Shown here: piece after piece, positions 19,551-54,762 of the stretch
How the letters are laid out: every line of letters starts with the position of its first letter
How positions within the stretch are numbered: position 1 is the first letter of the stretch
From: Selenomonas ruminantium subsp. lactilytica TAM6421
GTDB lineage: Bacteria; Bacillota; Negativicutes; Selenomonadales; Selenomonadaceae
Length of the DNA: 64,000 bases
Direction: 5' to 3'
Assembly (NCBI RefSeq): GCF_000284095.1
Contig: NC_017068.1
Coordinates: 1,178,001 to 1,242,000 of the forward strand
The notes under the pieces: generated by a model
What the model saw: only the letters and a program-made list of their open reading frames with translations
Told to the model about the DNA's origin: nothing
Databases searched by the model: none
Program-made: the position numbers and the translations under genes

Positions 19551-20645
19551 ATGTTATTACTTTCAGATTTTGATTATGAACTGCCTGAGGAGCGCATTGC
19601 CCAGGTTCCTATCGAACCACGCAACGCCTCCCGGCTGATGGTGCTGGATCCGGTGGAAAAGACCATGGAGCACCGTCATTTCTATGACCTCAAGGAATAT
19701 GTGGAGCCGGGGGATACCCTGATCTTCAACGATACCCGCGTAATGCCGGCCCGTCTGATCGGGCATCGCGACCAGACCGGCGGCAAGGTGGAAGTTTTCC
19801 TGCTGCGTCGCATTGATGCCACCCATTGGGAAACACTGGTCAAGCCGGGCAAGAAAGCCAAGCCGGGCTATAAGATCAACTTCAGCGACGAGCTGAGCTG
19901 TGTGGTCACGGATCATACGGATTTTGGCGGCCGCGTGGTGGAGTTCCAATATGAAGGCATTTTTGAGGAAATTCTGGACCGTCTGGGTGAGACGCCTCTG
20001 CCGCCTTATATCCATGAAAAGTTGGAGGACAAGGAACGGTATCAGACGGTTTATAACCGCGAGGAAGGTTCGGCGGCTGCGCCGACAGCCGGCCTGCATT
20101 TCACCAAGGAGCAGATGCAGGAACTCAAGGATATGGGCGTGAACCTGGGCTTTGTGACCTTGCATGTGGGGCTGGGCACCTTCCGTCCCGTCAATGTGGA
20201 AGATATCCAGAAGCATGATATGCACAAGGAGTTTTACCATGTGCCGGAAGAAACGGCCAAGCTTATCATGGAAACCAAGGCTGCAGGCCATCGAGTGATC
20301 GCCGTGGGTACCACCAGCATCCGCACTTTGGAGTCCGCAGCGGACGGCGTGGGGGAAATCTCCGCCAAGAGCGGCTGGACGCAGATTTTCATCTATCCGG
20401 GTTATGATTTCAAGATCGTGGATGCCATCATCACCAACTTCCATCTGCCCAAGTCCACGTTGATCATGCTGATCAGTGCCTTTGCGGGCCGGGAGTTCGT
20501 TCTCGATGCCTATAAGACGGCGGTGGAGATGGAGTATCGTTTCTTCAGTTTTGGCGACGCTATGTATCTCTCAGTACAACAGCCAAAAGAAGAACGCGAC
20601 AAAGAGCTGGCGGCCCTTGAAGCGTCTCATCAGCAAGCTGAATAA
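19551..20645 (+). CDS. queA: tRNA preQ1 ribosyltransferase-isomerase QueA, with a phage-supplied C-terminus
   Basis: 364 residues. QueA moves the ribosyl part of S-adenosylmethionine to preQ1 in tRNA, forming epoxyqueuosine, which QueH then reduces. Family landmarks: [87 protein letters not shown]. The last 28 codons (from 20558) come from the integrated phage. The displaced host version lies at 54754-54843 and is the same length, with 18 of 28 residues identical. The protein therefore stays full length in the lysogen. The tgt gene often found next to queA is not here. Confidence 0.95.
20551..20577 (+). other. attL, serine-recombinase attachment site inside queA
   Basis: Host half TTGGC, core GA (20556-20557), then CGC and the phage arm TATGTATCTCTCAGTAC (20561-20577). 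That arm is an imperfect inverted copy (13 of 17) of the attR arm GTACTTAGCAGTACATA. The crossover falls inside the Asp codon of FGDAM. Confidence 0.75.
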
Positions 20646-20652
20646 ATGACAG

Positions 20653-20694
20653 GAAGCACCGGAAAGTCGTAGGATTGCCGGTGCTTCTTTTTTT
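20653..20694 (+). terminator. Terminator between queA and the integrase gene
   Basis: GAAGCACCGG (20653-20662) and CCGGTGCTTC (20678-20687) form a 10-bp perfect stem followed by a T-run. It is phage DNA and ends the rebuilt queA transcript. Pairing also permits use by the convergent integrase gene. Confidence 0.85.
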
Positions 20695-22393
20695 ACAACT
20701 CATATTCAAATCTATGCGTTTGCCCGTTGGTAAATTCGAGCTCGATGATTCTGCCATTGCGTACCGTGATGCGGGACACAATGGTGTTTACGAACTCCTT
20801 CAGCATGGCGGCATCGGTATTAGTGGCAAGCTGTTCAAAATCAATCCTGCCTTTTTGCAGGGAGGTGCTCATGAAGAAATGGGCAGCCTTTTGGACGAAT
20901 ATTTCCTCGGATAGATTGGTGGCAAAGATGGAATCCTTGCGGATGGCTTCGAGTTCCCTTTTGATGCGCGCAATATTATCTTCCAGGGCTTTCTTTTGCT
21001 GCAGGAATTCGGCCTGCCCCATGGCATCATCTGCATACAGAAACAGTTGCTTCAACCGGTCAAGGGCGCGGGTGTTCTTATCCAACTCCGCTTGCAGGTT
21101 TTCATCTTTGCGTTTAGCCGCTTCCGGGCCATGTCCATTTTTCATCGGCTGGTATTCAGTGGTACTGGCGAGGTTATCTATCAGCGTGGTACGGATGCTG
21201 GCAAGTGTAGCAGGGGAGATGGCTTTTATTTCGCGGAAGGTATCACCACGCAGTAAGGTGCTGCGGATTCGGCGCGTCTGCCAGCGTGGCGAAAACTCCT
21301 TTTTCAGCCGGATCATGTTGCTGATGTAGTTGAAGACAAAGTTGCCAACGGTTATATCGGTGACATACTTATTATCGCAAAGTGCCTTTTGCCGCCGGCC
21401 ACTGCATTGGTACATCGAAGGCCGGTATCCGGAAGCCAGCGTCCGGCTGAGGGAAGCGAAGTAGTTGTCCCCGCAGTTGCCGCATTTTATCAGTCCGGCG
21501 AAGATATGAATGTTCTTTCGCTGGGAGTGGGTGGCTTTTCCCTGCAGGCGGCGGTTCTTGGTCAGCCAGTAGTCGATGGTGGCATATTCTTCCTGTGTGA
21601 ATAAAGCATCATGGTGCTTACTGCACATGACCCAGTCTTTTTTGTCCTTGAAGGTGAAAGTGCCCTTCGCCTCATTTCGGTAATTATAGCGGTAAGTGCC
21701 GCGATAAAAGGGACTGCGCAGGATAATCGCTACGGTCTGCGGCGTCCAGCCAAAACCACGCCGGGTGCGTCGGCCAATGGCATTGAGTTCATGAGCCGTA
21801 CCGGTGATGGAGTGAAGGCGCAGATAGATGTTTTTCAGCTCAAGGACCACTTTGGCCTCATCTTCGCGGATCGAGAATGAATCCGTCTCCTTGTCATAGC
21901 TGTATCCAAAAGGCACGCGGCCGCCGTTCCATTTTCCTTCGGCGGCCCGGGCGTTCATCGTGGACATGACGCGCTCGCTGGTCATATTGCGTTCCAACTC
22001 GGCAAAGACCAGGATAATCTTCAGCATGGCTTCGCCCATGGCCGTGGACGTGTCAAACTGTTCGTTTTTCGAAACGAAGGTTACGCCCAGTTTCTTGCAC
22101 TCCGCATACATGGACGCAAAATCCAGCAGGTTGCGGCTGACGCGGTCAATTTTCCAGACCAGCACATGGGAAAATTCCCCTTCCTTGATACGCTCCATCA
22201 TCTCCTGGAACGCTGGCCGGTCTGTATTCTTCCCGGAATATCCGGCATCCTCAAAAACTTCGTAATCCTCAATGTTGAGGGCATACTTTGCATAGTTAAT
22301 CATATCGCTCCGCTGCATCGGCAGGGAGTCCTTGTCTACCTGATGGATGGTAGACACACGGCAGTATATCGCCGCCTTCTTCGCTCCTGGCAT
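20693..22393 (-). CDS. Large serine recombinase (phage integrase)
   Basis: 566 residues. The N-terminal resolvase domain (about 6-150) starts AAIYCRVST with the catalytic Ser14, then EDAGYSGKNTDRPAF, VWKIDRVSRN and AELERNMTSERV. The recombinase domain follows (WNGGRVPFGYSYD). A zinc ribbon with Cys304-x2-Cys307 and later Cys pairs comes next, then a coiled-coil region near 430-510 and a C-terminal tail. Large serine integrases join attP and attB through a 2-bp core, matching the GA core found in queA. The gene lies against attL and reads toward it, the usual position. Confidence 0.95.
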   Translation of the reverse strand: MPGAKKAAIYCRVSTIHQVDKDSLPMQRSDMINYAKYALNIEDYEVFEDAGYSGKNTDRPAFQEMMERIKEGEFSHVLVWKIDRVSRNLLDFASMYAECKKLGVTFVSKNEQFDTSTAMGEAMLKIILVFAELERNMTSERVMSTMNARAAEGKWNGGRVPFGYSYDKETDSFSIREDEAKVVLELKNIYLRLHSITGTAHELNAIGRRTRRGFGWTPQTVAIILRSPFYRGTYRYNYRNEAKGTFTFKDKKDWVMCSKHHDALFTQEEYATIDYWLTKNRRLQGKATHSQRKNIHIFAGLIKCGNCGDNYFASLSRTLASGYRPSMYQCSGRRQKALCDNKYVTDITVGNFVFNYISNMIRLKKEFSPRWQTRRIRSTLLRGDTFREIKAISPATLASIRTTLIDNLASTTEYQPMKNGHGPEAAKRKDENLQAELDKNTRALDRLKQLFLYADDAMGQAEFLQQKKALEDNIARIKRELEAIRKDSIFATNLSEEIFVQKAAHFFMSTSLQKGRIDFEQLATNTDAAMLKEFVNTIVSRITVRNGRIIELEFTNGQTHRFEYEL

Positions 22394-23192: not shown

Positions 23193-23300
23193 CACAAAAA
23201 GCCCCTTAGCAACGACCACGAATCGTATGCTAAGGGGCTTTTGTGTGTAAATAGATCTGCGGCAAATAGCTGCATATATTTACGATCGGTACTTTAAGCA
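23191..23300 (-). ncRNA. Predicted minus-strand RNA, orphan antitoxin-like copy
   Basis: A minus-strand promoter TTGATA (23334-23329), 17 bases, TATACT (23311-23306) would start an RNA near 23300. It would end at the hairpin formed by 23193-23211 and 23228-23245. Promoter, spacer and hairpin sequence (AGCCCCTTAGCA) are close copies of those of the antisense RNA at 23925-24020, but no toxin peptide lies opposite. It may be a remnant or a decoy. Confidence 0.45.
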
Positions 23301-23924: not shown

Positions 23925-24020
23925 GGACAACACAAAAAGCCCCTAGCAACGACCGCTAATCGTATGCTAGGGGTTATTTTTGTCGGTGAGCACATGACTC
24001 TCAACCATAATCTTTCCATT
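23925..24020 (-). ncRNA. Predicted antisense RNA antitoxin for peptide 2
   Basis: Minus-strand promoter TTGATA (24055-24050), 17 bases, TATACT (24032-24027). The RNA of about 95 bases ends at the AAAAAGCCCCTAGCA hairpin, whose minus-strand copy is followed by TTTTT. Confidence 0.5.
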
Positions 24021-24126: not shown

Positions 24127-24282
24127 ATGGATAAATATTACAAAAGAATGCGTATTCTAAGAAAAATAGTATTGTGGCTAATAGTGATAATGTTCTTTTT
24201 TTCTGAGAGTGTAAATGAAAAAATGAATCAGATTATGATGTTTCTTCTTTTTTCTGAGATTTGCAGTATTTCAGATAAATAA
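24127..24282 (+). CDS. Small membrane peptide (51 aa), convergent with the gene below
   Basis: ATG 24127 follows GTGAGGGGAAC. The 51-residue product has a basic N-terminus (KYYKRMRILRK) and a hydrophobic stretch (IVLWLIVIMFFF). Its last 50 bases overlap, tail to tail, the end of the minus-strand gene 24233-25069. No family recognised. It could be a toxin-like peptide or an accessory to the opposing protein. Confidence 0.4.
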   Translation: MDKYYKRMRILRKIVLWLIVIMFFFSESVNEKMNQIMMFLLFSEICSISDK

Positions 24283-25069
24283 CTAAGTCGGTAAAAAGTA
24301 CAGCCAAGCAAGCGATGGCTTTCACAAACTCTGAAGAATCAGCTATGTTGTAAAGTGTGGTTAGTTCAACACTGATTTGCTCGCATAATGCAATATATGC
24401 ATCGAGATTGTCGATGCATTCATCTTTCTCAGCGACATGTACCAAAGCAGCGTCTACTTGCTGACAAAGCTCCGGCTGATTTTCCTCCATGTACGCAAAG
24501 GCCGGTAATGTTACACTAGCCTGAGGGATATCTGCGTGTACTGCAGGAAATAAATGGTCAATGCTTTGTAAGGTTTCCTCCAGAGCGGTGATTCTCGAGA
24601 GTCTGGTCATCTGTGTGAAGGCCCTTTGATGTGCAGCAAAAGATGCGGTCACCTCAACAAGCGGCTGCCGGAGCATGGCCATTACATCGACAGATGGCTT
24701 CAATGCAGGCTGACGTATCTTAGTGAATTGCTTCTGGTGCTTTATGATTTGTTGAAAGTGCTGTGTGGCGGTGGCTGCAGAAGATTCAGCGAGAGTCTGG
24801 TGCCATGTTGCCATAGCTTCCATGACAGGTTTTGCGGTCAGCCCTGTAGTGGCATATGGCTTAGCTGCCTGAAGCATGCTTGGGGACATGATCTTTTGAA
24901 TTAGTTCCTGATGCAGGCGAGCTTTGTCCAGTGTTGGGTGGGCGGCACGGCTTATTTTCTGTTGCTGTTCGCTTAAATGTCTAAAAACACTAGATTGCAA
25001 TAATTCTGCTATTGATGCCAAGGCAGGGGATTGCCATTCTGATTGCTTGAAAGAACCTGTTTTGTTCAT
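24233..25069 (-). CDS. C-terminally membrane-anchored hypothetical protein
   Basis: 278 residues from ATG 25069 (AAAGGATG upstream); an earlier in-frame ATG at 25099 has no RBS. Long amphipathic helices fill residues 1-200, with an internal near-repeat (AKPVMEAMATWHQ...HQKQFTKIRQ and KPSVDVMAMLRQ...HQRAFTQMTR). Near the C-terminus a hydrophobic segment (AIACLAVLFTDLVIYL) is followed by a Lys/Glu-rich cytosolic tail. No family recognised. Next to the repressor gene and on the lysogenic strand, it may be expressed in the lysogen, so superinfection exclusion is one possibility (inference). Confidence 0.55.
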   Translation of the reverse strand: MNKTGSFKQSEWQSPALASIAELLQSSVFRHLSEQQQKISRAAHPTLDKARLHQELIQKIMSPSMLQAAKPYATTGLTAKPVMEAMATWHQTLAESSAATATQHFQQIIKHQKQFTKIRQPALKPSVDVMAMLRQPLVEVTASFAAHQRAFTQMTRLSRITALEETLQSIDHLFPAVHADIPQASVTLPAFAYMEENQPELCQQVDAALVHVAEKDECIDNLDAYIALCEQISVELTTLYNIADSSEFVKAIACLAVLFTDLVIYLKYCKSQKKEETS

Positions 25070-25097
25070 ATTTATCACATCCTTTCCAAGCCGCCTC

Positions 25098-25125
25098 ATC
25101 TACGGGGCGGCTTTTTGTTGTGCTT
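25098..25125. terminator. Bidirectional hairpin below the repressor gene
   Basis: AAGCCGCC and GGCGGCTT (25098-25105 and 25118-25125, approximately) close an eight-bp stem. The plus-strand side is followed by TTTTTGTTG. It lies between the repressor stop and the anchored-protein start. Confidence 0.5.
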
Positions 25126-25165: not shown

Positions 25166-25576
25166 TTATCCAATACGTTCGGCGGTGCTCATCGGCGTTT
25201 CTTCCACGGCTTCGCCCTGAGCACGCACTTCCGGCTTTAGGATGGTATCGACGATGGATTTGTCTCGGTCGTTGGCGTTGCGATAGGCTTCAACGAGGGC
25301 AGCTTCTTCAGGGGTGAGGGTATCGGGCTGGATTTGTGGCTGCTGGCGGGCGGCTGCAGGGGAGTCTGCCTGGTGGCCCTGAGGCTGGTCGGACAGGCCA
25401 AGGAGATAGTCGGTGGTGACGTTGAAGTAGGCGGCAATTCTTGAAAGAGTGGCGTAATCAGGTTGCCGCCGTCCTTGCTCGTACATACCGATAGCACTGG
25501 CTGAAATTTGTAGCGCTTTGCTTAATTCTGCTTGGGTTATTTGTTTATCTAGACGAAGTTCTTTCAGTTTAAGCAT
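25166..25576 (-). CDS. Phage repressor, XRE-family (cI-like)
   Basis: 136 residues. The helix-turn-helix occupies about residues 5-60 (ITQAELSKALQISASAIGMYEQGRR, then YATLSRIAAYFNVTTDYLLG). A Gln/Ala/Pro linker follows, then a short helical C-terminus (LTPEEAALVEAYRNANDRDK). It has no LexA-like peptidase domain, so induction would need an antirepressor or another signal. It is divergent from a cro-like gene across 143 bases holding four operator candidates. Confidence 0.85.
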   Translation of the reverse strand: MLKLKELRLDKQITQAELSKALQISASAIGMYEQGRRQPDYATLSRIAAYFNVTTDYLLGLSDQPQGHQADSPAAARQQPQIQPDTLTPEEAALVEAYRNANDRDKSIVDTILKPEVRAQGEAVEETPMSTAERIG

Positions 25577-25941: not shown

Positions 25942-26076
25942 ATGGTTGCTGTATTTGATTGGAAAATTTTTGTGAACATATCAAAATATTATGATACATG
26001 GCTAGATGGGGGGAATAACGGCATAGAGGCGCAGTTAAACATTGTTTTGGAACATCAATATATAACAGAATGTTAA
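25942..26076 (+). CDS. Short hypothetical ORF (44 aa)
   Basis: ATG 25942 with a weak AAAGG upstream, 12 bases after the cro-like gene. It is not notably hydrophobic. It ends four bases inside the minus-strand exonuclease gene (tail to tail). It may be a real early gene or chance. Confidence 0.3.
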   Translation: MVAVFDWKIFVNISKYYDTWLDGGNNGIEAQLNIVLEHQYITEC

Positions 26077-27050
26077 ATATTTTCAATCATATTATAGAAA
26101 TCATTTTCTGGTATGATTTGCAGGTCTTGGCCTTTTAGTATTAACTGTTCTGCTTTTTTTAGTTTTGTACTTTTTCCATCTTTTATATTAGAAACGTAGT
26201 CAAAATCTCCTACAATTAGAAAATTTGTTCTTTTGTTTATGTTGTTTTCACAATATCCGCCAAGGTTTACTACAATTTGAGCTGCATCTTTTCGGATAAA
26301 ACGTTCCAATTTTCCTGTGAAAACACAATGTTTGTTATATAAAGGATGGCCAATATCAAAACTGGATTGTGATGCTGTTAGTGTACGTAAGTCAACTGGT
26401 TTATGTGGCGTTAGATTAATGGCATTGTTGGTAACTAACTTTGCAAGTTCTTGTAAAACAATAGTTGTTGTTTGGCAGTCACTTTCTGCACGATGATGTT
26501 GGCTTTGGATGTCAAAATAGTCATCTAGATCAATTAAACGGTGATGTTCTAGGTCTGGTAAAGCTAGGCGAGCTATACGCATCGTGTCAACAAAATCATT
26601 ATTAAGTATATATGATTGATTGTGGTCAAATAAGTTGTCGTACAAAAAATTTAAATCAAAATGAATATTATGGCCTACTAGAATTTCGTTATGCAAGAAA
26701 TTCCATAAAGCATCTGCAATATCTTCGAATTTAGGTGCTCCTGATAGCATTTCACTGGTAATACCTGTGAAACAGGAAATAAAACAGTTAACATAAGCGA
26801 CTAAACCATGATAATTCGCATTATCTAATTTGTCTTGTTCACTTTTGGCTACATGAAATGGTGGTGGTTGGACAAGTGAGGAAAAAAAATCCACTTCTAT
26901 GTTGTTACGGTATTTAATACAACTTATTTCTATGATTGAATCATAATTGGGTGATAATCCTGTCGTTTCAATGTCGATAACAGTGTAGTCGTTTGGGAAC
27001 TGCAGTAGAGAAGTGCCTTTTCTTCTTTTGGTTGGGTTCATTTTTGACAT
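26073..27050 (-). CDS. DEDDh 3'-5' exonuclease fused to a BRCT domain
   Basis: 325 residues from ATG 27050 (GGAGGATTAAC upstream); the open frame extends further, but its earlier ATG lacks an RBS. The exonuclease is of the DnaQ type: ExoI VIDIETTGLS (Asp26, Glu28), ExoII GHNIHFDLNFLYD, ExoIII HHRAESDCQT. The last ~85 residues form a BRCT domain (YNKHCVFTGKLERFIRKDAA, VNLGGYCENNINKRTNFLIVG), like those of DNA ligase or RFC. It should degrade or proofread DNA and bind DNA ends. AT-rich relative to flanking genes, so probably a cargo gene. Confidence 0.85.
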   Translation of the reverse strand: MSKMNPTKRRKGTSLLQFPNDYTVIDIETTGLSPNYDSIIEISCIKYRNNIEVDFFSSLVQPPPFHVAKSEQDKLDNANYHGLVAYVNCFISCFTGITSEMLSGAPKFEDIADALWNFLHNEILVGHNIHFDLNFLYDNLFDHNQSYILNNDFVDTMRIARLALPDLEHHRLIDLDDYFDIQSQHHRAESDCQTTTIVLQELAKLVTNNAINLTPHKPVDLRTLTASQSSFDIGHPLYNKHCVFTGKLERFIRKDAAQIVVNLGGYCENNINKRTNFLIVGDFDYVSNIKDGKSTKLKKAEQLILKGQDLQIIPENDFYNMIENI

Positions 27051-27208
27051 GTTAATCCTCCATTTCTTTATAGCAGTTAACAATAGTCTTTTATGATCAT
27101 AGGGGACTGTTAAGAAAGGGATATGGTCTTTGTTTATAGAGTAGCACGCGTATATCAAGAAATCAAATATATTTACCTAATTTATCAAAGCATATACAGG
27201 AGGGGGAA

Positions 27209-29981: not shown

Positions 29982-30045
29982 TGCCGCCGCGGGGCGGCAT
30001 GGGGCTTGTATGCGGTATTAACATTTCGTTGAAATACAATTGTAT
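29982..30045. repeat. Hairpin and palindrome upstream of rep
   Basis: TGCCGCC/GGCGGCA (29982-29988, 29993-29999) forms a GC-rich stem-loop. ATACAATTGTAT (30034-30045) is a perfect 12-bp palindrome 46 bases before rep. Positions suit a Rep nick site, an operator or a parS-like site. None is demonstrated. Confidence 0.35.
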
Positions 30046-30090
30046 ACCCTAAAAAGATATGAACCATAGTTAGAGACAAGGAAATGAGTT

Positions 30091-30957
30091 ATGAGTGGGA
30101 ATCGAAAAAGAACCAGACACTGCGGAAGGTATGGAGCCAGAGCAGAATATATTCAGGTAAGTTATTTCAAATACACAGAGAGAGGGACCAGGCAGGGGAG
30201 AGGCAGGCAGCGGAAGTTTGAAGCCAGCACCCCAAAGCAGAGGAATCTCAATGAGAAAAGAAGCAAGCGATATTTTGAAGCACTGGTTTTGTCCAATTTC
30301 CACAAAGATGACCTGCATGTGACTGTGACCTATGATGATGAGAACCGGCCCGCTGACTTGAAGATGGCCATGAAGGCGGTGGAAAACTACATCAGGAGAC
30401 TGAATTATACCCGGAGCAAGGCAGGGCTGTCCTCTGTCCGGTATGTATGTGTCACAGAGGAAGGAGCTACCAATGGCCGGATTCACCATCATTTCATCAT
30501 GGACGGGGATTTGGACCGGGACACGGTAGAAAAGCGGTGGGGGCTGGGCTATTGCAATGCAGACCGTATCCAGCCAAACCGGAAGAATGACATTGCTCCC
30601 TTGATTGGCTATTTGTCCAAAGACCCCAAGGGACGCAAGCGGTGGTCATCTTCCCACAACCTTGTCCGTCCCTGGGACAGTATCAATGATGACCCGCGGA
30701 TGATGAGCAGCAAGAAAATGGCTTTGATGAAGGATTTGCCAGAGGACAGTGAACTCATGAAGCAAATCATCGAGGCGGATAATCCCAGCTATGTGCTGGA
30801 TAATGTGGAAAAGGAGTACCGGGAAGATAACTCCCAATGGTATTTCTTCTGTCGTATGAAAAGGAGAAAACAAAGTGAGAACCATCAATATTTGCAACCT
30901 GAAGGGCGGGGTGGCCAAGACCACCACCAGCATCAACCTTGCCTGCAATCTGGCTGA
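30091..30957 (+). CDS. HUH-type rolling-circle replication initiator (Rep)
   Basis: 288 residues. The HUH signature is RIHHHFIMDG (His132-134). An upstream motif 1 (LHVTVTYDDENRP) and motif 3 (GYLSKD, with Tyr174 the likely nicking tyrosine and Lys177) are in correct order. Such enzymes nick one strand at the origin and stay covalently attached through the tyrosine. The last 28 codons overlap parA in another frame, so the tail (QPEGRGGQDHHQHQP) is constrained by that gene. Such Reps are common in plasmids, satellite elements and some Firmicutes prophages. Confidence 0.75.
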   Translation: MSGNRKRTRHCGRYGARAEYIQVSYFKYTERGTRQGRGRQRKFEASTPKQRNLNEKRSKRYFEALVLSNFHKDDLHVTVTYDDENRPADLKMAMKAVENYIRRLNYTRSKAGLSSVRYVCVTEEGATNGRIHHHFIMDGDLDRDTVEKRWGLGYCNADRIQPNRKNDIAPLIGYLSKDPKGRKRWSSSHNLVRPWDSINDDPRMMSSKKMALMKDLPEDSELMKQIIEADNPSYVLDNVEKEYREDNSQWYFFCRMKRRKQSENHQYLQPEGRGGQDHHQHQPCLQSG

Positions 30958-31642
30958 TATGGGGAGGAGAGTGCTGCTGGTGGATAACGATAAGCAGGCC
31001 AATTCTTCGCAGTTCTTTGACCGCCATAGCTATGAGGCTCCCGGCATTGCCGAGGTGTTGACTGGGAAAGTGCCAATACAGGAAGCTATCCAGCAGACGG
31101 ATTATCCGCGGCTGGATATTCTGCCGGCCAACATGAACCTGCTGGCGGCGGACAAGGAGATACTCATGGATGAGGAAGTCCCCCAGCATGAGCATTTGAA
31201 ACGGGCACTGACCATTGTCGATGGCCAGTATGATTTCGCCATCATCGATAATGCCCCAGATGTGTCCATGAGTGTTATCAATGCGCTGACTGCCGGCGAC
31301 GACTATATCATTCCCGTCAAGATTGACCGGTTTACCTTCGATGGGGTGGATATCATGGTGGATACGGCCAATCAGGTCAGGGATAACTATAACCCGAAGC
31401 TGAATTTTTGTGGCTGCATCATCACCAGCTTCCGCTTCAATGACGTGAACCGCATAGGGGCAGCATATCTGGCCAGCAGTCAGTATAAGCTGTTCCAGAC
31501 AAAGATTCACTGGACACCAAAGGTGGATGAGGCCAGTTTTGAGGGCAAGCCATTACGGGAATACAGTCCCCGCTCCTGGGCGGCAAAGAACTACCGGGAA
31601 ATGGCTGCAGAATATCTGGAAATGGTAGAGGGAGAGAAGTGA
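30875..31642 (+). CDS. parA: ParA-family partition ATPase
   Basis: 255 residues from GTG 30875 (AAAAGGAG upstream, inside the end of rep). Deviant Walker A KGGVAKTTTS near the N-terminus, Walker A' VLLVDNDKQAN, Walker B FAIIDNAP. No N-terminal HTH, so a small (type Ib-like or chromosomal-size) ParA. With ParB next door it should move or anchor an episome on the nucleoid. It overlaps the parB region (AAGTGACAATG). Confidence 0.9.
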   Translation: MRTINICNLKGGVAKTTTSINLACNLADMGRRVLLVDNDKQANSSQFFDRHSYEAPGIAEVLTGKVPIQEAIQQTDYPRLDILPANMNLLAADKEILMDEEVPQHEHLKRALTIVDGQYDFAIIDNAPDVSMSVINALTAGDDYIIPVKIDRFTFDGVDIMVDTANQVRDNYNPKLNFCGCIITSFRFNDVNRIGAAYLASSQYKLFQTKIHWTPKVDEASFEGKPLREYSPRSWAAKNYREMAAEYLEMVEGEK

Positions 31643-31644
31643 CA

Positions 31645-33063
31645 ATGGCATTTGACATGATGACCTTGATGAACAACAAGAGCAAGGCACAGGCGGCAGG
31701 AAAAGGCAAATATGAGCTCCAGAACATACCACTGGAGAAGATGATTCCCAATCCTGCCAATGAGCTGATTTACGAGACCGGGGAGATTGAAGAACTAGCC
31801 CGCTCCATCCTGCTGACGGGGAAGGTGCTGCAGAATGCGGTGGTGGCTGCCGCCGATGAGAATGGCAACCATGTCATCATTGCAGGGCACCGCCGCAGGC
31901 TGGCCTGCATGAAGTTGGTCGAGGAAGGGCATACCGAATTTGCACAGATGCCCTGTATGGTCATGACGGAACCAGATGACCTGCTGCAGGAGCTGTTCCT
32001 GATCCAGACCAACAGTACGGCCCGTGTCCTGTCTGAAGCTGAAAAGATGCGGCAGGCAGGGCGGGCAACGTTCATTCTCAATCAGCTAAAGGAGCGTAAG
32101 CAAATCAGCGGGCGGGTGCGGGATATTGCTGCGAAGATGTTAGGGACGACCACAGGGCAGCTGGGGCGTTACAATGTCATTTCCAAGGGGCTGAACAATG
32201 AAGTATTGCGGGCGGCTTTTGAAAATAGCGAAATCGGTATCAGCGTAGCCTATGAAGCCGCCAGGTTGTCTGCAGAGGAACAGGCGGCATTGGCTGAAAA
32301 ATTAAGCCAGGGACAGACAATCACCATAAGGGATATTGTGGTGCGGCAGAAACAGGCTGAGGTGCGGAAGGCAGCGGAAGAGTCTGAAATGGCACTGCCC
32401 ATGCAGATGGAGTATATGCTGCATATCAAACCACGATTCAATATGACACTGACCATTCAGTATGTGGAAAAAGATGGTAAATACTATGCCGGCTATCAAT
32501 ACAAATCCAATAATGCCGGGGCAGTTTCGGATATAAACTATAATTTCCCCTATGATTCCAGCCAGAAAGCCATAGAAGGGATTATGGTCGAATTGTCCCA
32601 TTATTATCCCACCCTGCATGAAGCTTTATGGGAGAGCGGCTATAGTGTCGTAGGCTGCCCGGTAGCAAAAGAAAAGCCTGCCGAACCGAAGCCGGCAGAA
32701 CCTCAGGCAGAATCACAAGCAGAACCATCAACAGACGAAAATGCCCACGACAAAGAGGAAACGGCGACGGAACCGCCCGCCGAGGATATTGGTGGTGAGG
32801 AACTGGAGATAGAGGATATGCGGGCCATGTGGCTGCGCAAACGGGCTTTGCGGGAAGTGGTCAAGAGTCTGAACTGCCAGGTGGAATATGAAGTCATGCA
32901 GGTGAAGATGAATCTGGAGTCACCGATAAGAATAAGCACACATAGCGTAATGGCCGGTATTTTCAATGAGTATATCATCATGGCCAAACAGGAAATTGCG
33001 GACATTACGGCCCGTTTGGGAGACTGGGAAGAGCTTTTTGACCAGGAAGCGGGCGGCAAATAA
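31645..33063 (+). CDS. parB: ParB-family partition protein
   Basis: 472 residues from ATG 31645; GTG 31639 in frame is possible. N-terminal ParB/Srx CTPase-type domain with IPNPANELIYETGEIEELA in parts and the hallmark GHRRRLA. A helical DNA-binding middle follows (VRDIAAKMLGTTTGQLGRY). A Pro/Glu/Ala-rich linker (PAEPKPAEPQAESQAEP) leads to a C-terminal helical domain, probably for dimerisation. Longer than a simple ParB. The parS site is not identified. Confidence 0.85.
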   Translation: MAFDMMTLMNNKSKAQAAGKGKYELQNIPLEKMIPNPANELIYETGEIEELARSILLTGKVLQNAVVAAADENGNHVIIAGHRRRLACMKLVEEGHTEFAQMPCMVMTEPDDLLQELFLIQTNSTARVLSEAEKMRQAGRATFILNQLKERKQISGRVRDIAAKMLGTTTGQLGRYNVISKGLNNEVLRAAFENSEIGISVAYEAARLSAEEQAALAEKLSQGQTITIRDIVVRQKQAEVRKAAEESEMALPMQMEYMLHIKPRFNMTLTIQYVEKDGKYYAGYQYKSNNAGAVSDINYNFPYDSSQKAIEGIMVELSHYYPTLHEALWESGYSVVGCPVAKEKPAEPKPAEPQAESQAEPSTDENAHDKEETATEPPAEDIGGEELEIEDMRAMWLRKRALREVVKSLNCQVEYEVMQVKMNLESPIRISTHSVMAGIFNEYIIMAKQEIADITARLGDWEELFDQEAGGK

Positions 33064-33101: not shown

Positions 33102-33398
33102 ATGGTTTCTGTGTACAAAATCTTTGACGTGCATGTGGAGATCTATGATATTCCCGATATGGACGAAACCGAAGCCGCCAGCTATATAGAATTCGTTGAG
33201 AAGGAGAAGGGAATGAAGCTGACAAAGCTGGAAATTGCTCCTGCTGGTTCTGATGAGATAACGCTGACTTACACCTGCAAGGGCGAAAAATTCGAGCGTA
33301 TACGCCGGATAACCGGGTATCTGGTGGGAACGATTGACCGCTGGAACAATGCCAAACAGGCGGAGGAACATGACCGGGTGAAACATATTCGGGTATAG
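33102..33398 (+). CDS. Hypothetical phage protein (98 aa)
   Basis: ATG 33102 with AAGGGGGTGATAA. Alpha/beta composition (VSVYKIFDVHVEIYDIPDM, ITLTYTCKGEKFERIRRI). No membrane segment, no recognised family. Lies between parB and the late regulator, in the same direction with short gaps. Confidence 0.55.
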   Translation: MVSVYKIFDVHVEIYDIPDMDETEAASYIEFVEKEKGMKLTKLEIAPAGSDEITLTYTCKGEKFERIRRITGYLVGTIDRWNNAKQAEEHDRVKHIRV

Positions 33399-33419: not shown

Positions 33420-33995
33420 ATGCAGAATGAAAAAAATGTGTCCAATTCGGACACAAAACAGGAAAAAACTGAATTACAGGGGCTTATCGAAGAAGCTGTA
33501 GAGCATAAGATGGAGGAAGTGGGCCGCAGGCTGATTCTGGCGGGCAAAAAGACGCAAAAGAATTGGACGAAAATGACCATGAAGCGGCTTTATAGCTATC
33601 CAATTTTGAAGGCCAACATTGAACGCTACAGGAAGGATATTGACGATATCCGGAAGGAGGACATGGGCAAGTCCAAAAGCATCGTGGAGTTCCATGGGGA
33701 TATCAGGGAATGGGAAAAGCCTGATGTGGAGGATTTGCGGGCGGCTAAAATTCATACTGTGGAAATGAAGATTGACCGGGATACACGCGAAGTCAGGGAA
33801 ATTGAGGTGGCGTTGGATAGTGTCCGGGCTGACCAATATTATCCCATTATCGAGATGAAATTTTTCCAGCACATGACCCATGAGGAAATCGCAGATAAAA
33901 TCCCATGTGGAGTGACCACGGTTTCCAGACAGCTGGGGCGATTGCTGGATATCATAAATGTAACGCTCTATGGAGCAGATGCGCTGGCTCGCTGA
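33420..33995 (+). CDS. ArpU/sigma-like late transcription regulator
   Basis: 191 residues. The C-terminal part resembles a sigma-factor region 4 helix-turn-helix (MKFFQHMTHEEIADKIPCGVTTVSRQLGRLLDI), as in ArpU/RinA-type regulators that switch on late phage genes. The N-terminal part is charged and helical. It sits just before the packaging module, as expected. A promoter with an immediate terminator at 35950-36037 is a candidate target (inference). Confidence 0.65.
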   Translation: MQNEKNVSNSDTKQEKTELQGLIEEAVEHKMEEVGRRLILAGKKTQKNWTKMTMKRLYSYPILKANIERYRKDIDDIRKEDMGKSKSIVEFHGDIREWEKPDVEDLRAAKIHTVEMKIDRDTREVREIEVALDSVRADQYYPIIEMKFFQHMTHEEIADKIPCGVTTVSRQLGRLLDIINVTLYGADALAR

Positions 33996-34667: not shown

Positions 34668-34851
34668 GGATTCCCGAGGCTGGAGATATAAGGTCATGGC
34701 GGGACTGGGGACACGGTTCAAGGCCAGGTATCTCAAACCAAAAGCAGGTGGCTGGCATTGCGTGAAGGTTTTACCATGGCGGGATAGTATTGAGGAAGCC
34801 GAAAATGACTTGATTGAATATGCGAAAAAGAAGCAGATGAAGGAAGTATAA
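34651..34851 (+). CDS. Small hypothetical phage protein (66 aa)
   Basis: ATG 34651 with AAGGAG 10 bases upstream. Beta-rich (WRYKVMAGLGTRFKARYLKP, GWHCVKVLPWRDS) with a helical, lysine-rich end. Resembles short unassigned phage proteins that begin with an N-terminal RGWRY-type segment. Ends at the terminator below. Confidence 0.5.
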   Translation: MGLMYEDSRGWRYKVMAGLGTRFKARYLKPKAGGWHCVKVLPWRDSIEEAENDLIEYAKKKQMKEV

Positions 34852-36855: not shown

Positions 36856-38544
36856 ATGAATTATGTGAGAGCATACCTGGGACAGATTGTTTCTGGCGAG
36901 GTGGTGGTATCCAAAAAGGTTGAGCGGGTTTATCGAAAGCTGGTCGCCGATATGAGCGATATGGAATGCCCATGGGAATTCGATGAGCGCCGGGCAGACC
37001 ATGCCGTAATTTTTATCGAACGGTTCTGCAAGCATAGCAAAGGCCCCGCGGGCGGCAACCCTTTCATATTGGAGCTGTGGCAGAAAGCGCTGGTGGCGGC
37101 TATGTTTGGCTTCATTCACAAGATTGACGGCACACGTCGTTTCCGGGAAGTGGCGTTGATTGTGGCCCGTAAGAATGGCAAGTCTACTTTGGCGGCCGCC
37201 ATCGGCATTTATCTGATGATAGCCGATCAGGAACCAGGGGCAGAAGTTTATGCAGCGGCCACCAAGAAAGACCAGGCGAAAATTATCTGGCTGGAAGCCA
37301 AACGTATGGTCAATAAATCGCCGGTTCTGCGTGCCAAGATAAAACCCTTGGTGGCAGAACTCAATTCGGATTATAACGACAGTACCTTCAAGCCATTGGG
37401 CAGTGATTCCGATACATTGGACGGGTTGAACGTACACGGTGCATTGCTGGATGAAATCCATGCCTGGAAAAGCCGGGGACTCTATGATGTCATCGTAGAC
37501 GGCACCAGCGCCCGTGAACAACCCATGATTTTCATTACGTCTACGGCGGGCACTATCCGGGAAGCAGTATATGACCAAAAGTATGATGAGTATGCGAACA
37601 TCATCAAAGGCTATGATGATCCGAACCTCCCGCAGGATGATCGCGTCTTACCGATTGTGTACGAATTGGACACAAGGGGCGAATGGACACAGCCGGAATG
37701 TTGGCCAAAGGCTAATCCCGGACTGGGAACAATCAAAAAGCTTGACCAGTTGGAAGATAAAGTCCGAAAAGCTCAGGCTGATATCAAGCTGGTCAAGAAT
37801 CTGTTGACCAAGGATTTTGATGTGAGGGAAACCTCCAGCGAAGCTTGGCTGGAATTTGAGGAACTCAATAATGAGGCGGTATTTGATATCGAGGAGCAGG
37901 CTCCCTGCTATGCTATCGGCGGAGCTGACCTGTCTGCTACCACTGACCTTACGGCGGCGGTTATCATCTATCGGCTCAAGCATGACAATCATTTGTATGT
38001 GCTGCAGATGTACTGGATGCCGGAAGAGCTTATCGAAAAGCGGGTGGCTGAGGATAAGATTCCCTATGACCTTTGGCGGGAACAAGGAATTCTCAGAGCA
38101 TGTCCCGGCAATCGTGTTGAGTATAAGGATGTGACTGCCTGGTTCGCTGAGATGCAGGCAGAACATGGCCTTTATATCACATGGGTTGGATATGATCCGT
38201 GGGGCGCTCCTTACTGGAAAAGTGACATGGAAGCAACCTTCGGGGAAATCATGGAGGAAGTCCGGCAGGGAAAAGTTACTTTGTCCAATCCGATGAAGGA
38301 ACTGGCGGCAGAACTCCGGGCCAACCATATTGTCTACAACAACAATCCGATTCTCAAATGGTGCATGTCCAATGTGGCCATTGACGTGGATAAGAACCTG
38401 AATATCCAGCCGTGCAAGAACAACAACCAGCGGCGACGTATTGATGGCTTTGCGGCCCTCTTGGACGCTTATGTGGTCTACACCCGGCATTTGGAAGAAT
38501 ATATCAGCATGGTAGATGACCATGTGGAAGAAGGAGGTGAGTGA
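36856..38544 (+). CDS. terL: Terminase large subunit
   Basis: 562 residues. N-terminal packaging ATPase with ARKNGKST (Lys109) as Walker A and LLDEIH (Asp199, Glu200) as Walker B. The C-terminal RNase-H-like nuclease has GGADLSATTDLTA and later WVGYDPWGAPYW. It cuts concatemers and drives DNA into the head. Its stop overlaps the portal gene's RBS. Confidence 0.95.
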   Translation: MNYVRAYLGQIVSGEVVVSKKVERVYRKLVADMSDMECPWEFDERRADHAVIFIERFCKHSKGPAGGNPFILELWQKALVAAMFGFIHKIDGTRRFREVALIVARKNGKSTLAAAIGIYLMIADQEPGAEVYAAATKKDQAKIIWLEAKRMVNKSPVLRAKIKPLVAELNSDYNDSTFKPLGSDSDTLDGLNVHGALLDEIHAWKSRGLYDVIVDGTSAREQPMIFITSTAGTIREAVYDQKYDEYANIIKGYDDPNLPQDDRVLPIVYELDTRGEWTQPECWPKANPGLGTIKKLDQLEDKVRKAQADIKLVKNLLTKDFDVRETSSEAWLEFEELNNEAVFDIEEQAPCYAIGGADLSATTDLTAAVIIYRLKHDNHLYVLQMYWMPEELIEKRVAEDKIPYDLWREQGILRACPGNRVEYKDVTAWFAEMQAEHGLYITWVGYDPWGAPYWKSDMEATFGEIMEEVRQGKVTLSNPMKELAAELRANHIVYNNNPILKWCMSNVAIDVDKNLNIQPCKNNNQRRRIDGFAALLDAYVVYTRHLEEYISMVDDHVEEGGE

Positions 38545-38547
38545 TGC

Positions 38548-39729
38548 GTGTGGATTTTCGATAAAATCAAGACATGGTTGGGCGGCCCGGAAGAAACCCG
38601 GCTGGCCATGGTCAGTTCGACAGGTAATGGGTTCTATTCCTGGAATGGTGACCTTTACCGCAGCGATATTATCCGCGCCTGCCTGCGGCCGTTTTATAAG
38701 TCGGCGGGAAAGCTGGTGCCGAAGCAGGTCAGGGAAAATAGTAAAGGCGAGACGCTTATCAATCCGGATTCTTATGTGCGGGTTTTGCTGGAAGAACCTA
38801 ATCCATATATGACCGGGCAGATGATGCAGGAGCGGCTGGCTATCCAGTTCAAGCTGAACAATAATGCTTTTGCGTTCATTCTGCGGGATGCGGGCGGTTA
38901 TGCCCGGGAAATCTATCCCATCAATGCGGTAGGCGTACAGGCCAAGTATGACAAGAACGGTGTACTGTTTCTGGAATTCACCATGAAGAACGGGCATGTC
39001 CTGACTTTCTACTATTCGGACGTGATTCACCTGCGTCAGGATTATGGCGAGAATGATGTGTTCGGCAGTTCCAATATGGAGATGCTCAAACCGTTGATGG
39101 AAGTCATCAATGCCACAGACCAGGGCATGGTTTCCAGCATCAAGAACAGCGCTACTATCCGTTGGCTGCTGAAGTTCAAATCTCCTCTGGCTGAGCCGGA
39201 TAAGAAGAGACAGGTGGAAATGTTCGCCAAAGCCTTCCTTGACCAGTCAGAGAACAGCACTGGCGTGGCCGCTGTCGATACCAAGGCTGATGCCGAGCAG
39301 ATTCACCCTGATGATAAACTGCCGAATGCGGCGCAGATGGACAGGGCGTTGAACCGCATCTATAACATCTTCGGCACCAATGAGGCCATTGTTCAATCGA
39401 AATATGATGAAGACCAATGGAACGCCTATTACGAGTCGGAGATTGAGCCTTTTGCTACGCAGTTTTCTCATGAACTGACCCGCAAGATTTTCTCCCGGCG
39501 AGAACGCGCTCATGGGAACCGTATTGTTTTTGAAACTTCCAGCCTGCAATATGCCAGCATGGCCAACAAGCTGAATCTGGTGCAGATGGTGGACCGTGGC
39601 AGTATGACACCGAACGAGTGGCGAAAGGTATTGAACCTTGGGCCCATCGAGGACGGCGATACACCTATCCGGCGATTGGATACGGCTCAGGTTACAGATG
39701 GCAAAACTGCGGAAGGGGGTGACGAATAA
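38548..39729 (+). CDS. Portal protein (HK97 family)
   Basis: 393 residues from GTG 38548 (AAGGAGGTGAG upstream; the ATG at 38544 opens a short dead frame). Typical HK97 portal features: IIRACLRPFYKSAGKLVP, LLEEPNPYMTGQMMQERLA, and a long wing/stem. Forms the dodecameric ring for DNA passage and overlaps the protease gene by one base. Confidence 0.93.
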   Translation: MWIFDKIKTWLGGPEETRLAMVSSTGNGFYSWNGDLYRSDIIRACLRPFYKSAGKLVPKQVRENSKGETLINPDSYVRVLLEEPNPYMTGQMMQERLAIQFKLNNNAFAFILRDAGGYAREIYPINAVGVQAKYDKNGVLFLEFTMKNGHVLTFYYSDVIHLRQDYGENDVFGSSNMEMLKPLMEVINATDQGMVSSIKNSATIRWLLKFKSPLAEPDKKRQVEMFAKAFLDQSENSTGVAAVDTKADAEQIHPDDKLPNAAQMDRALNRIYNIFGTNEAIVQSKYDEDQWNAYYESEIEPFATQFSHELTRKIFSRRERAHGNRIVFETSSLQYASMANKLNLVQMVDRGSMTPNEWRKVLNLGPIEDGDTPIRRLDTAQVTDGKTAEGGDE

Positions 39730-40439
39730 TGCAGACGACAATAGAACAGGCCACAACCATCACCAAGCAAGGGAATAGAGGGAAACTCTATTTCTATGGT
39801 GATATCGTCAGTAGCTGGTGGGGGGCTTGGGATAATACAGACCAATACCCGGAACGCATCAGGGATTTCCTGTCCGGCCAGACAGGCCCGCTGGATATCT
39901 ACATCAATTCTGCGGGCGGCAGCGTATGCGCCTGCATGGCCATCTACAATATGCTTTCCCGTTATCAGGGAGAGAAGGTTGTCTATGTAGATGGTTTGGC
40001 GGCATCGGCGGCTTCCGTCATAGCACTGGCCGGGGATAAGGTAATCATTCCGGAAAATGCGTTCTTCATGATTCATCATGCCTGGACAAGTGCCGTGGGC
40101 AATGTCAATGAGCTGGAGAATGTGGTGGGAATGCTCCGCTCTATGGACGATGCGATGCTGTCTGTTTACGAAGCGGCTGCAGCTATCAGCCGGGATCAAA
40201 TCATTGAGTACATGGATATGGAAAAATGGTTCACCGGGGCTGAGGCGGCGGAAGCATTCCATAAGATTTCTACCATGCCGGCGGCTGAAATTGCGGCAAA
40301 GGCTGACGATGACGCCATGGCACGGTTCAAGAATATCCCACCGGGATTGTGGTTGGCTGAGCAGAAAGCAAAAGCTGCCGTAGAAGTGGAACGGGAGCGG
40401 CTGGCGCTCCTGGATATGAAAGGAGGTTGTCGGTCATGA
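39729..40439 (+). CDS. ClpP-like prohead maturation protease
   Basis: 236 residues, S14 family. Catalytic Ser93 in GLAASAAS and His116 in MIHHAW, with YINSAGGSVCACMAIYN upstream. It cuts the capsid scaffold (delta) domain during head maturation. Followed by a small lysine-rich ORF and the capsid gene. Confidence 0.93.
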   Translation: MQTTIEQATTITKQGNRGKLYFYGDIVSSWWGAWDNTDQYPERIRDFLSGQTGPLDIYINSAGGSVCACMAIYNMLSRYQGEKVVYVDGLAASAASVIALAGDKVIIPENAFFMIHHAWTSAVGNVNELENVVGMLRSMDDAMLSVYEAAAAISRDQIIEYMDMEKWFTGAEAAEAFHKISTMPAAEIAAKADDDAMARFKNIPPGLWLAEQKAKAAVEVERERLALLDMKGGCRS

Positions 40440-40576
40440 CGCCGGAAGAACTTAAACGGTATCGGGAAGGTGCTCAGGTAAATCCTGAGGTCAAAGCCGA
40501 TACTGGCAAGAAGGAGAAGAAGGGTGCTGACAAGAGTGCCGATAAGAGCACAGAGAAGGGAGACAAAGAAAAATGA
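40436..40576 (+). CDS. Small lysine-rich protein between protease and capsid (46 aa)
   Basis: ATG 40436 overlaps the protease stop (ATGA) and its own stop overlaps the capsid start. AGGAGGTTG is seven bases upstream. The sequence is nearly all charged (TGKKEKKGADKSADKSTEKG), so disordered. A scaffold, decoration or linker role is possible. Not recognised. Confidence 0.55.
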   Translation: MTPEELKRYREGAQVNPEVKADTGKKEKKGADKSADKSTEKGDKEK

Positions 40577-41829
40577 ACTACGAAGATTACAAAGCCCAGA
40601 GAGATGAACTGATGGCTCAGGCCAAAGCAGCGCTTGACGCTGGCAAGGTGGACGAAGCCAAAAAGGCTCGTGCCTCCATTGAAGAATTGGACACTGCCTA
40701 TGAGGCAGCGCAGGCAGAAGCTGCCAACTTGGCGGCATTGGAAACTGGCGTGGCTAAACCTGCTGCCCCGGTAGCGCCACAGGCTATTAAGGCTGCAGTG
40801 GCCGGTCCTGTGGTGGCTGTTGCTCCTGCTGTCGATGAGGGCAAAGCTCGTGAGGAGATGTATCGCACGGCTTTTGCCAAAACGCTGATGAAGCGGACTT
40901 TGACTGCTGATGAAAGTGATATTTTCGCCCAGGTCAATCATGGTGCTTTTGCTACGGTGGCTAATAAGGCATCTGGCAATCAGGTGGTTATCCCGACCAC
41001 CATGAAGCAGGAGATTTGGCAGGAAATGGCCGAGCTTCACCCCATCATTGGCGAAGTAGATTTCACCGATGTACCGGGCAATCTGGAAATCCCCAAAGAA
41101 ACCGGCAACAGCGGCGATGCGGCATGGGTGGATGAAGACACTGCAGCTACCAGCGGAACGTTGAGCCTCAGTAATATAACGCTGGCTGGCCATGAACTGG
41201 TCAAGGCCATCACGGTGTCCTGGAAGCTCAAGACCATGAGCATTGACGCTTTCCTGACCTACATCACGACCAAGATTGCGGAACGCATGGGCGCTGCCAT
41301 CGCCAACGCCATTGTCAGCGGTAAGGGCATTCCGGGCGTGGGTGACACCTTCAAGGCACAGCCTTATGGCATCATCACCCGCCTGAAGGGTGAAACCAAC
41401 ACCCCGCAGGTAGTGACCTATACGCATGGTGGCAGTGTGGCTTATGCCAATATCACGGCGGCTCTGGGCAAAATCAAGTCCGGCTATATGGACGGTGTGA
41501 AGATTTACGCCAAGAACTCCGATATCTGGAATCAGCTGGCCAACATCACCACCACGCAGAAACAGCCCATCTTTATTCCTGACCCCACGGGACAGACCAT
41601 TGGCCGTCTCTTTGGCCGGGAAGTTGTGGAAGAAGATGCAATTCCGACAGGCTCCTTCCTGATCGGCAACGTGCGTCGCGCCTATGTGATGAACCGCAAT
41701 CAGGATGTGTCCATCTACACCGAAGAACATACGCTGGCCCGCAGCACGGATTATATGGGCTATGCTATTCTTGACGGCGATTTGCTCACCACCAAGGCTT
41801 TTGTTCTCATTAAAGAAGCAGCATCTTAA
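40573..41829 (+). CDS. Major capsid protein (HK97 fold)
   Basis: 418 residues. The N-terminal ~100 residues are an alanine-rich helical delta domain (AQAKAALDAGKVDEAKKARAS), the usual target of the ClpP-like protease. The HK97-fold body begins near VNHGAFATVANKASGN and ends DGDLLTTKAFVLI. GC-rich compared with the tail-tip genes. Confidence 0.94.
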   Translation: MNYEDYKAQRDELMAQAKAALDAGKVDEAKKARASIEELDTAYEAAQAEAANLAALETGVAKPAAPVAPQAIKAAVAGPVVAVAPAVDEGKAREEMYRTAFAKTLMKRTLTADESDIFAQVNHGAFATVANKASGNQVVIPTTMKQEIWQEMAELHPIIGEVDFTDVPGNLEIPKETGNSGDAAWVDEDTAATSGTLSLSNITLAGHELVKAITVSWKLKTMSIDAFLTYITTKIAERMGAAIANAIVSGKGIPGVGDTFKAQPYGIITRLKGETNTPQVVTYTHGGSVAYANITAALGKIKSGYMDGVKIYAKNSDIWNQLANITTTQKQPIFIPDPTGQTIGRLFGREVVEEDAIPTGSFLIGNVRRAYVMNRNQDVSIYTEEHTLARSTDYMGYAILDGDLLTTKAFVLIKEAAS

Positions 41830-54733: not shown

Positions 54734-54762
54734 GTACTTAGCAGTACATAGGGGATGCCATG
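54734..54762 (+). other. attR, right attachment site
   Basis: Phage arm GTACTTAGCAGTACATA (54734-54750), GGG, core GA (54754-54755), then host queA sequence TGCCATG. Joined to the attL arm across GA it makes an attP with inverted arms TACATA/TATGTA separated by exactly eight bases with GA at the centre. Confidence 0.75.

Follow-up and report, generated by a model that had tools for sequence, protein, structure and literature searches.

The DNA examined here (the window) is a 64,000-nucleotide stretch of Selenomonas ruminantium subsp. lactilytica TAM6421, comprising bases 1178001–1242000 of contig C1 (3,003,680 bp) in a 3.63-Mb genome of 10 contigs. It contains a prophage of 34,198 bp that extends from an att core at 20553 to an att core at 54751 (all positions are window coordinates unless stated otherwise), and within this prophage a replication gene is followed directly by a pair of partition genes. 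These three genes, rep (30091–30957), parA (30875–31642, GTG start) and parB (31645–33063 from its ATG, with an alternative GTG start at 31639), lie on the plus strand. An earlier interpretation of this DNA, made without database searches (the sequence-only reading), had described them as consecutive and overlapping, and this is indeed the case: rep and parA share 83 bases, and parA and parB share 4 bases when parB begins at the GTG. Plasmid-type replication and partition genes are present in an integrated phage, although this Rep also belongs to a phage family.

The rep product matches PF23343 (E = 1.2e-11) and phrog_3584, a ‘replication initiation protein’ family (E = 8e-62). The catalytic residues of an HUH-type initiator are exactly where the sequence-only reading had placed them, with three histidines at positions 132–134 and a tyrosine at 174. 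An alignment of 10 homologues shows H132, H134 and Y174 without exception, and among the 20 sequences of a broader set a single phage, TMW 1.1365 P2, carries Asn instead of H132. Searching the Rep sequence against solved structures gave no match, and the predicted fold (mean predicted local distance difference test score, pLDDT, 76.5) has HUH nucleases as its best matches, which are weak (E no better than 1.8e-3). Relatives of Rep at E 1e-5 come from 45 phage records (26 of them small and microvirus-like, the other 19 named as tailed phages or left unplaced) and from a single plasmid record that is itself phage-like and carries a ParM-type gene. ParA and ParB were unmatched in the stretches read of five Rep-bearing phages, two of which are close relatives of each other.

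Upstream of rep is an element (29982–30022) that we regard, from its sequence conservation, as a candidate rolling-circle origin. It consists of a GC hairpin (29982–29999, plus strand), whose stem is conserved in all close relatives, followed by the motif CTTGTATGCGGTATTAAC (30005–30022, plus strand), a candidate nick region that we take to resemble the nick sites of the phiX174 and pC194 type. The hairpin followed by a CTTGTnnnnnGTATTAAC-like motif precedes rep in 14 of 20 sequences, the window included; the six without it are G120, two Latilactobacillus phages, the P. sordellii plasmid, Toutatis and Lelie, and in G120 a CTAGT variant can be seen by eye. The pattern is not rare, with three matches across both strands of the window, and the fold of the origin DNA is unremarkable (z = −1.71). 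The same element is found in a Terrisporobacter phage and in two loci that lack ParA and ParB (L006 and G015).

The sequence-only reading had offered both the GC stem and a nearby 12-bp palindrome (30034–30045) as candidates for the origin or for parS. The stem survives as part of the conserved origin element and fails as parS, since the Par-less L006 and G015 have a stem at the same place before rep. The 12-bp palindrome occurs in the window, L002 and G152, and it was rejected in both roles because L003 and L004 (the IMG/VR contigs G190 and G191) lack it and still keep Rep, ParA and ParB. A further inverted repeat, TCCTGAT-N6-ATCAGGA, is located 225 bp upstream of rep and is confined to the window, G190, G191 and G152.

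ParA is a Soj-type ATPase with the deviant Walker motif that characterizes ParABS systems (AAA_31, E = 7e-46; Soj structures, E = 3e-30). ParB matches the phrog_4715 ParB family (E = 4e-43) and contains the motif GHRRRLA, so that on both proteins the sequence-only reading was correct. No Pfam family matched ParB over the cut-off, but the N domain of a profile built from 14 ParBs matched Noc/ParB structures (E = 1e-15), as did the fold predicted for ParB (mean pLDDT 77.5). ParB is accordingly predicted, by profile and by model, to combine a ParB/Noc N domain of the CTP (cytidine triphosphate)-binding type with a helical, helix-turn-helix DNA-binding region. Ten genomes of the family have a Rep match with E below 1e-40. 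ParAB adjoins rep in seven of them; of the remaining three, one gave no ParAB in 30 kb and two (G019 and G122) were cut off by contig ends. A profile search of the genome contigs with ParB returned only six loci. One side observation is a second ParA/ParB locus on the same chromosome (L137, G000:C1:1327001-1347000, at 9689–11553), where the palindrome ATGTTAATTATTAACAT occurs 22 bp and 4.1 kb after parB.

The likely centromere was not on the list of the sequence-only reading, which had recommended a search for parS-like repeats. An exact inverted-repeat search (arms of 6–7 bases, spacers of 0–12) for repeats common to 14 ParAB elements found GTGTCC-N5-GGACAC in 10 of them, with 24 copies, and the 19-bp palindrome around it has the consensus TGTGTCCGAnTCGGACACA. 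Two copies are found in the window. The first, TGTGTCCAATTCGGACACA (33437–33455), has one mismatch to the consensus and lies in the 5′ end of a gene for a phage regulator-like protein (33420–33995, plus strand; phrog_36 transcriptional regulator, E = 5e-14). The second, TGTGTACGAATTGGACACA (37656–37674), is degenerate, with two mismatches, and lies inside the terminase gene terL. When up to four mismatches are allowed, the 14 elements contain 37 sites, as opposed to 0–6 for 12 scrambled palindromes, a count that is partly circular because the consensus came from the same elements; nine Par-less loci contain one weak site. At two mismatches, 33437 and 37656 are the only sites in the host's own 3.6-Mb genome (none for the reversed control), and shuffled versions of the window had no sites. 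At that threshold, 189 genomes of the host's family yielded 42 sites in 15 genomes and the control yielded one; 35 of the 42 are in eight genomes that also matched ParB.

An independent test was provided by IMG/VR, where the exact 17-bp core is present in at least 120 stretches, compared with four for one scrambled palindrome. Among the 120 palindrome loci listed (1.08 Mb), which are not independent because several come from one record and some are near-identical, 36 encode a ParA and 33 a ParB of this family (23 and 20 in the first 80), whereas none of the four scrambled-palindrome loci and none of 20 queA loci used as controls do so. Thirty-three loci have both genes, and in 14 of them a copy of the palindrome lies within 120 bp of the parA–parB junction (9 of 20 in the first 80).

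The palindrome also changes with the type of ParB. More distant ParBs are accompanied by related but different palindromes: GTGTCCAAnTTGGACAC in G145 and G147, with a near-match in G048; GTGTCAGAnTCTGACAC in G007, with a near-match in G012; and GTGTTCGAnTCGAACAC in G038. In the last of these genomes, a chromosomal ParAB locus (G038:C1, roughly 1541–1587 kb, L134–L136) has 13 near-identical copies of GTGTTCGAnTCGAACAC spread across 43 kb. A single degenerate site, at up to five mismatches, was present in G035, and G043 and the second ParAB locus of the host's own genome have other palindromes, in too few copies for an assessment. Clustering of near-palindromes in 20 ParB elements recovered a GTGT-type site in 10 and other sequences in four (G035, G158, G164 and the second own-genome locus), with nothing repeated in the other six (the window, G190, G191, G152, G145 and G043). 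By sequence comparison, then, co-occurrence and covariation of palindrome and ParB are strong, and in other phages the site is often at the parA–parB junction. The 19-bp palindrome is likely the parS of the phage ParB; we did not find it in print within the open-licence PMC papers.

A palindrome of this kind could instead be an intrinsic terminator or a repressor operator, a role that would be compatible with any of the readings of ParAB considered below. The copy in the window has a T run behind it on the minus strand and was flagged as terminator-like, genomes that have no ParB match can carry a single site, as the Par-less G015 element does, and other phages have scattered repressor sites. 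However, the copies in G166 and G123 have no T runs, the bases themselves are conserved and not just their pairing, the variants track ParB type, and the IMG/VR scan retrieved ParAB along with the palindrome. We consider a terminator or operator role in place of parS to be improbable.

The prophage itself is inserted at the 3′ end of the host gene queA (19551–20645, plus strand), whose last codons, from the core at 20553 onward, are now phage-encoded. The gene remains whole because the phage brings its own version of these codons. The attL core GGCGACGC (20553–20560, plus strand) was located by comparison with the attP of the phage contig G152:C71 and the empty attB of G147, and the attR core GGGGATGC (54751–54758, plus strand) is followed by the displaced original queA 3′ end. 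Next to attL is a large serine integrase gene (20693–22393, minus strand; phrog_95, E = 1.2e-121), whose product is 89–94% identical in G190, G191 and G152. The prophage has both a large serine recombinase and att sites with a common short core. The presence of the integrase in one element with head and tail genes agrees with the sequence-only reading. In G190 and G191 the phage is integrated at the same place in queA, while in G147 queA is empty and the sequence downstream of it matches the attR flank of the window. G145:C12 carries an element inserted in queA with part of a related integrase, but its contig ends within 5.3 kb and is uninformative.

A circular form had been named by the sequence-only reading as a test of its proposal, and one is found in a close relative. 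In the S. ruminantium metagenome-assembled genome G152 (UBA3715), the phage is a separate contig of 36,087 bp (C71) whose order is a circular permutation of that of the prophage, with attP connecting integrase and lysin; the queA of G152, on another contig, is empty. The ends of the phage contig correspond to window positions 34851 and 34847, separated by about 2.3 kb of unaligned sequence, and a terminal repeat was not found on it. Because the window, G190 and G191 are integrated and the G152 contig is joined through attP, both forms of this lineage occur in sequenced DNA. Another candidate, G151:C224, was ruled out as a second circular form, as it is an attR with host genes.

These comparisons establish the genes, the exchange at the att sites, a circularly permuted attP relative, conservation of the origin element and the association of a palindrome with this family of ParBs. 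On this basis, the prophage can probably also be copied and inherited for a while as a free circle, in the manner of a plasmid, and we lean toward the view that ParABS segregates the excised, replicating circle until it integrates or enters lysis. The phage, a temperate siphovirus of 34.2 kb, would have its usual home at the queA 3′ end. After excision upon induction, or after entry into a cell, Rep would nick the origin upstream of its gene and the circle would replicate from this rolling-circle start; ParB would load on the parS palindromes in the phage genome and ParA would place copies of the circle in both daughter cells, so that the free form would be protected from loss until it is integrated or lytic.

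Several observations weigh against this view. The host's own 3.63-Mb genome has one Rep match, which is the integrated copy only. The G152 circle may be virion or lytic DNA, or may be wrongly binned, and every temperate phage would be expected to produce such a circle on excision. Rep alone is uninformative about a plasmid state because the same Rep family serves phages without ParAB. As for the palindrome, at three mismatches the host genome still has two sites, but the reversed control has two as well; a ParB match shares the contig with 25 of the 42 family sites; and seven of the 15 site-bearing genomes have no ParB match, with one site each. Finally, the window lineage is itself a weak case, with two candidate sites, one of them degenerate and within terL, and none of the window, G190, G191 and G152 yielded such a site on repeat clustering.

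A lasting plasmid state is a possible, bolder reading of the same module. In this case, lysogens would stably hold the phage in one of two forms, integrated in queA or partitioned as a low-copy plasmid, with cells switching between the two. The presence of rep, parA, parB and parS candidates under constraint would fit such a phage, as would the relative found as a circle beside an empty attB, and G192 (42.7 kb) has the module without an integrase match, as expected of a pure plasmid relative. In contrast, the phage is integrated in the window, G190 and G191, the G192 contig could be a fragment, and the only circle comes from a metagenome-assembled genome, which can contain virion or lytic DNA, so that this circle is no proof of a plasmid lysogen. 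We therefore judge a stable two-mode lysogen to be rather unlikely, and return to transient segregation of the excised circle as the preferred reading.

In the simplest model, rep, parA and parB would all be made upon derepression of the prophage or upon fresh entry into a cell, when the phage DNA is a replicating circle. We propose such joint expression because the three overlapping genes share their strand with the structural genes, and the gene for a CI-like repressor (HTH_3 profile matches; 25166–25576, minus strand) is on the other one. A consensus scan listed no plus-strand promoter-like site between 26816 and rep, and one weak site (9 of 12 positions) inside rep at 30308. The same arrangement would suit a ParAB that acts in the lytic phase, positioning or spreading replicating genomes or regulating genes via ParB sites, with no role in inheritance: parAB is downstream of rep and overlaps it on the structural-gene strand, the promoter scan points the same way, and the candidate site at 33437 is in the start of a regulator gene. 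Nevertheless, ParA and ParB resemble segregation proteins, and the sites cluster at parA–parB junctions in the IMG/VR loci. A purely lytic function thus appears unlikely to us.

It is also conceivable that a former phage-plasmid or plasmid gained an integrase and that rep and par are decaying baggage, since phage-plasmids can integrate and later lose plasmid genes, as described in a review (PMC11652158). The reading frames, however, are open, and the ratios of nonsynonymous to synonymous substitution (dN/dS), where computable, are 0.06 for Rep, 0.03–0.07 for ParA and 0.08–0.24 for ParB. This purifying selection disfavors the leftover explanation, as does the adjacency of ParAB to rep in seven of the eight examinable family genomes with a close Rep, and the Rep family is common to ordinary phages. 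We regard decay as very improbable. The suggestion of the sequence-only reading that a plasmid backbone had recently been captured is not supported, given these ratios and the 45 phage records against one phage-like plasmid record among Rep relatives.

An integrase and ParAB in one neighborhood is not peculiar to the window. By sequence, it is recurrent: an integrase was found nearby in 10 of the 14 compared ParAB elements, a proximity count that does not imply membership in the same element for every case. The integrase is of the serine type in the window, G190, G191, G152 and G166, and of the tyrosine type in G035, G145, G147, G048 and G007, about 3–11 kb from rep or parA; the four elements without an integrase match are contigs of 9.7–42.7 kb. 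Similarly, 14 of 16 IMG/VR records with ParA and the palindrome have a serine or tyrosine integrase match. These 16, of which 14 also have ParB in the locus, are the longer ones of the first 23 records, drawn from 36 loci with ParA or ParB, and the two without such a match measure 21.7 and 25.9 kb. Because integrases are common in temperate phages, such counts indicate co-occurrence rather than linkage. The claim of the sequence-only reading that only an extrachromosomal replicon would have a use for partition genes is thus too strong as a diagnosis, as ParAB recurs with integrases nearby.

All of the parts are of known kinds; an integrase together with an HUH Rep, ParABS and this palindrome appears to be a recurring variant. 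In the phage-plasmids P1 and N15, as here, ParA/ParB or SopA/SopB are found with phage-borne centromeres; unlike the phage described here, these are plasmid prophages by rule and have other replication systems. Cluster A mycobacteriophages such as RedRock and Miko are likewise temperate, with ParA, ParB and a phage-borne parS, and some have RepA, as described in PMC7157519. There, parABS replaces the integration cassette in roughly 20% of 621 phages and RedRock has parS loci made of eight 8-bp direct repeats (PMC7157519), whereas the phage described here combines an integrase with ParAB and has a 19-bp palindrome as its candidate parS. According to the review cited above (PMC11652158), integration and partition modules are both present in some of these actinophages. 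The integrase passages of PMC9600943 and PMC8026635 name no phage with both an integrase and ParAB. A parallel outside phages is the integrative and conjugative element (ICE) R391 of the SXT/R391 group, also an integrated element with a replicating excised circle, in which relaxase-started replication and an active partition locus (srpMRC) reduce loss (PMC4489591). Unlike the prophage, it is conjugative, uses ParM-like partition and is not a phage (PMC4489591).

Closer to the window is the Flavonifractor phage Cormatin (ON453905), a prophage of about 35 kb with chromosomal coordinates and an annotated replication initiator and ParA, for which a circularization signal and virions have been reported in Flavonifractor plautii (PMC10197239). 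We found a ParB-like gene in it by tblastn, along with four palindromes, GTGTCCGAATCGGACAC near the start of this gene and three copies of GTGTCCAACTTGGACAC. Unlike the window, it has no annotated integrase and its Rep is not among the matches to the window Rep at E 1e-5. The Latilactobacillus TMW phages and Terrisporobacter TPDSL_ph2, in contrast, share the Rep family (32–40% identity), and TPDSL_ph2 has an integrase, but the 12.7–14.3-kb stretches read of TMW 1.1365 P1, P2 and TPDSL_ph2 gave no ParA/ParB match.

Together these comparisons allow a broader proposal, which we put forward tentatively: anaerobic Bacillota phages may include a widespread class of temperate siphoviruses with an integrase, a complete ParABS with the palindromic centromere GTGTCCGAnTCGGACAC or close variants, and a two-state lysogeny. 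Its candidates so far come from Selenomonadaceae, Flavonifractor and many unnamed viral contigs. If such a class exists, the rule of integrase or partition derived from mycobacteriophages would not be general. Partition genes serve as a marker of phage-plasmids, and here they recur in chromosomal prophages or near integrases. If the free circle is indeed segregated, some temperate phages would have the flexibility to integrate or segregate seen in ICE R391, and sorting phages by gene content into ‘integrated’ and ‘plasmid’ would mislabel many. The palindrome offers a handle for finding such phages, and the candidate centromere is directly testable.

The remainder of the prophage includes the structural genes of a tailed phage, as the sequence-only reading had recognized. 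Their identities were confirmed, and all are on the plus strand: terminase large subunit (terL, 36856–38544), portal protein (38548–39729), head maturation protease (39729–40439), major head protein (40573–41829) and tail tape measure protein (44499–47243), followed by an amidase endolysin (53445–54656). Upstream of the integrase gene are two 50-nucleotide repeats (23197–23246 and 23934–23983) that are 80% identical and contain an inverted repeat, with 39- and 36-nucleotide repeats near them. A 288-residue protein encoded at 24233–25099 has no significant family match; it is 99.7% identical in G191, whereas Rep is about 91% identical, and this near-identity points to recent exchange. Between regulator genes in a GC-poorer stretch, a gene at 26073–27158 (minus strand) encodes a protein with an exonuclease domain and a BRCT domain that looks like cargo.

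Directly after parB, an open reading frame (33102–33398, plus strand) encodes a 98-residue protein whose residues 58–96, with the motif RITGYLVG, match the glycyl-radical C-terminus of the anaerobic ribonucleotide reductase NrdD (8p23, E = 2e-9). Relatives of it also follow parB in G190, G191, G152, G192 and G120. By analogy with YfiD, described as a spare glycyl-radical part for pyruvate formate-lyase (PMC8683613), this product could be a spare glycyl-radical part for NrdD.

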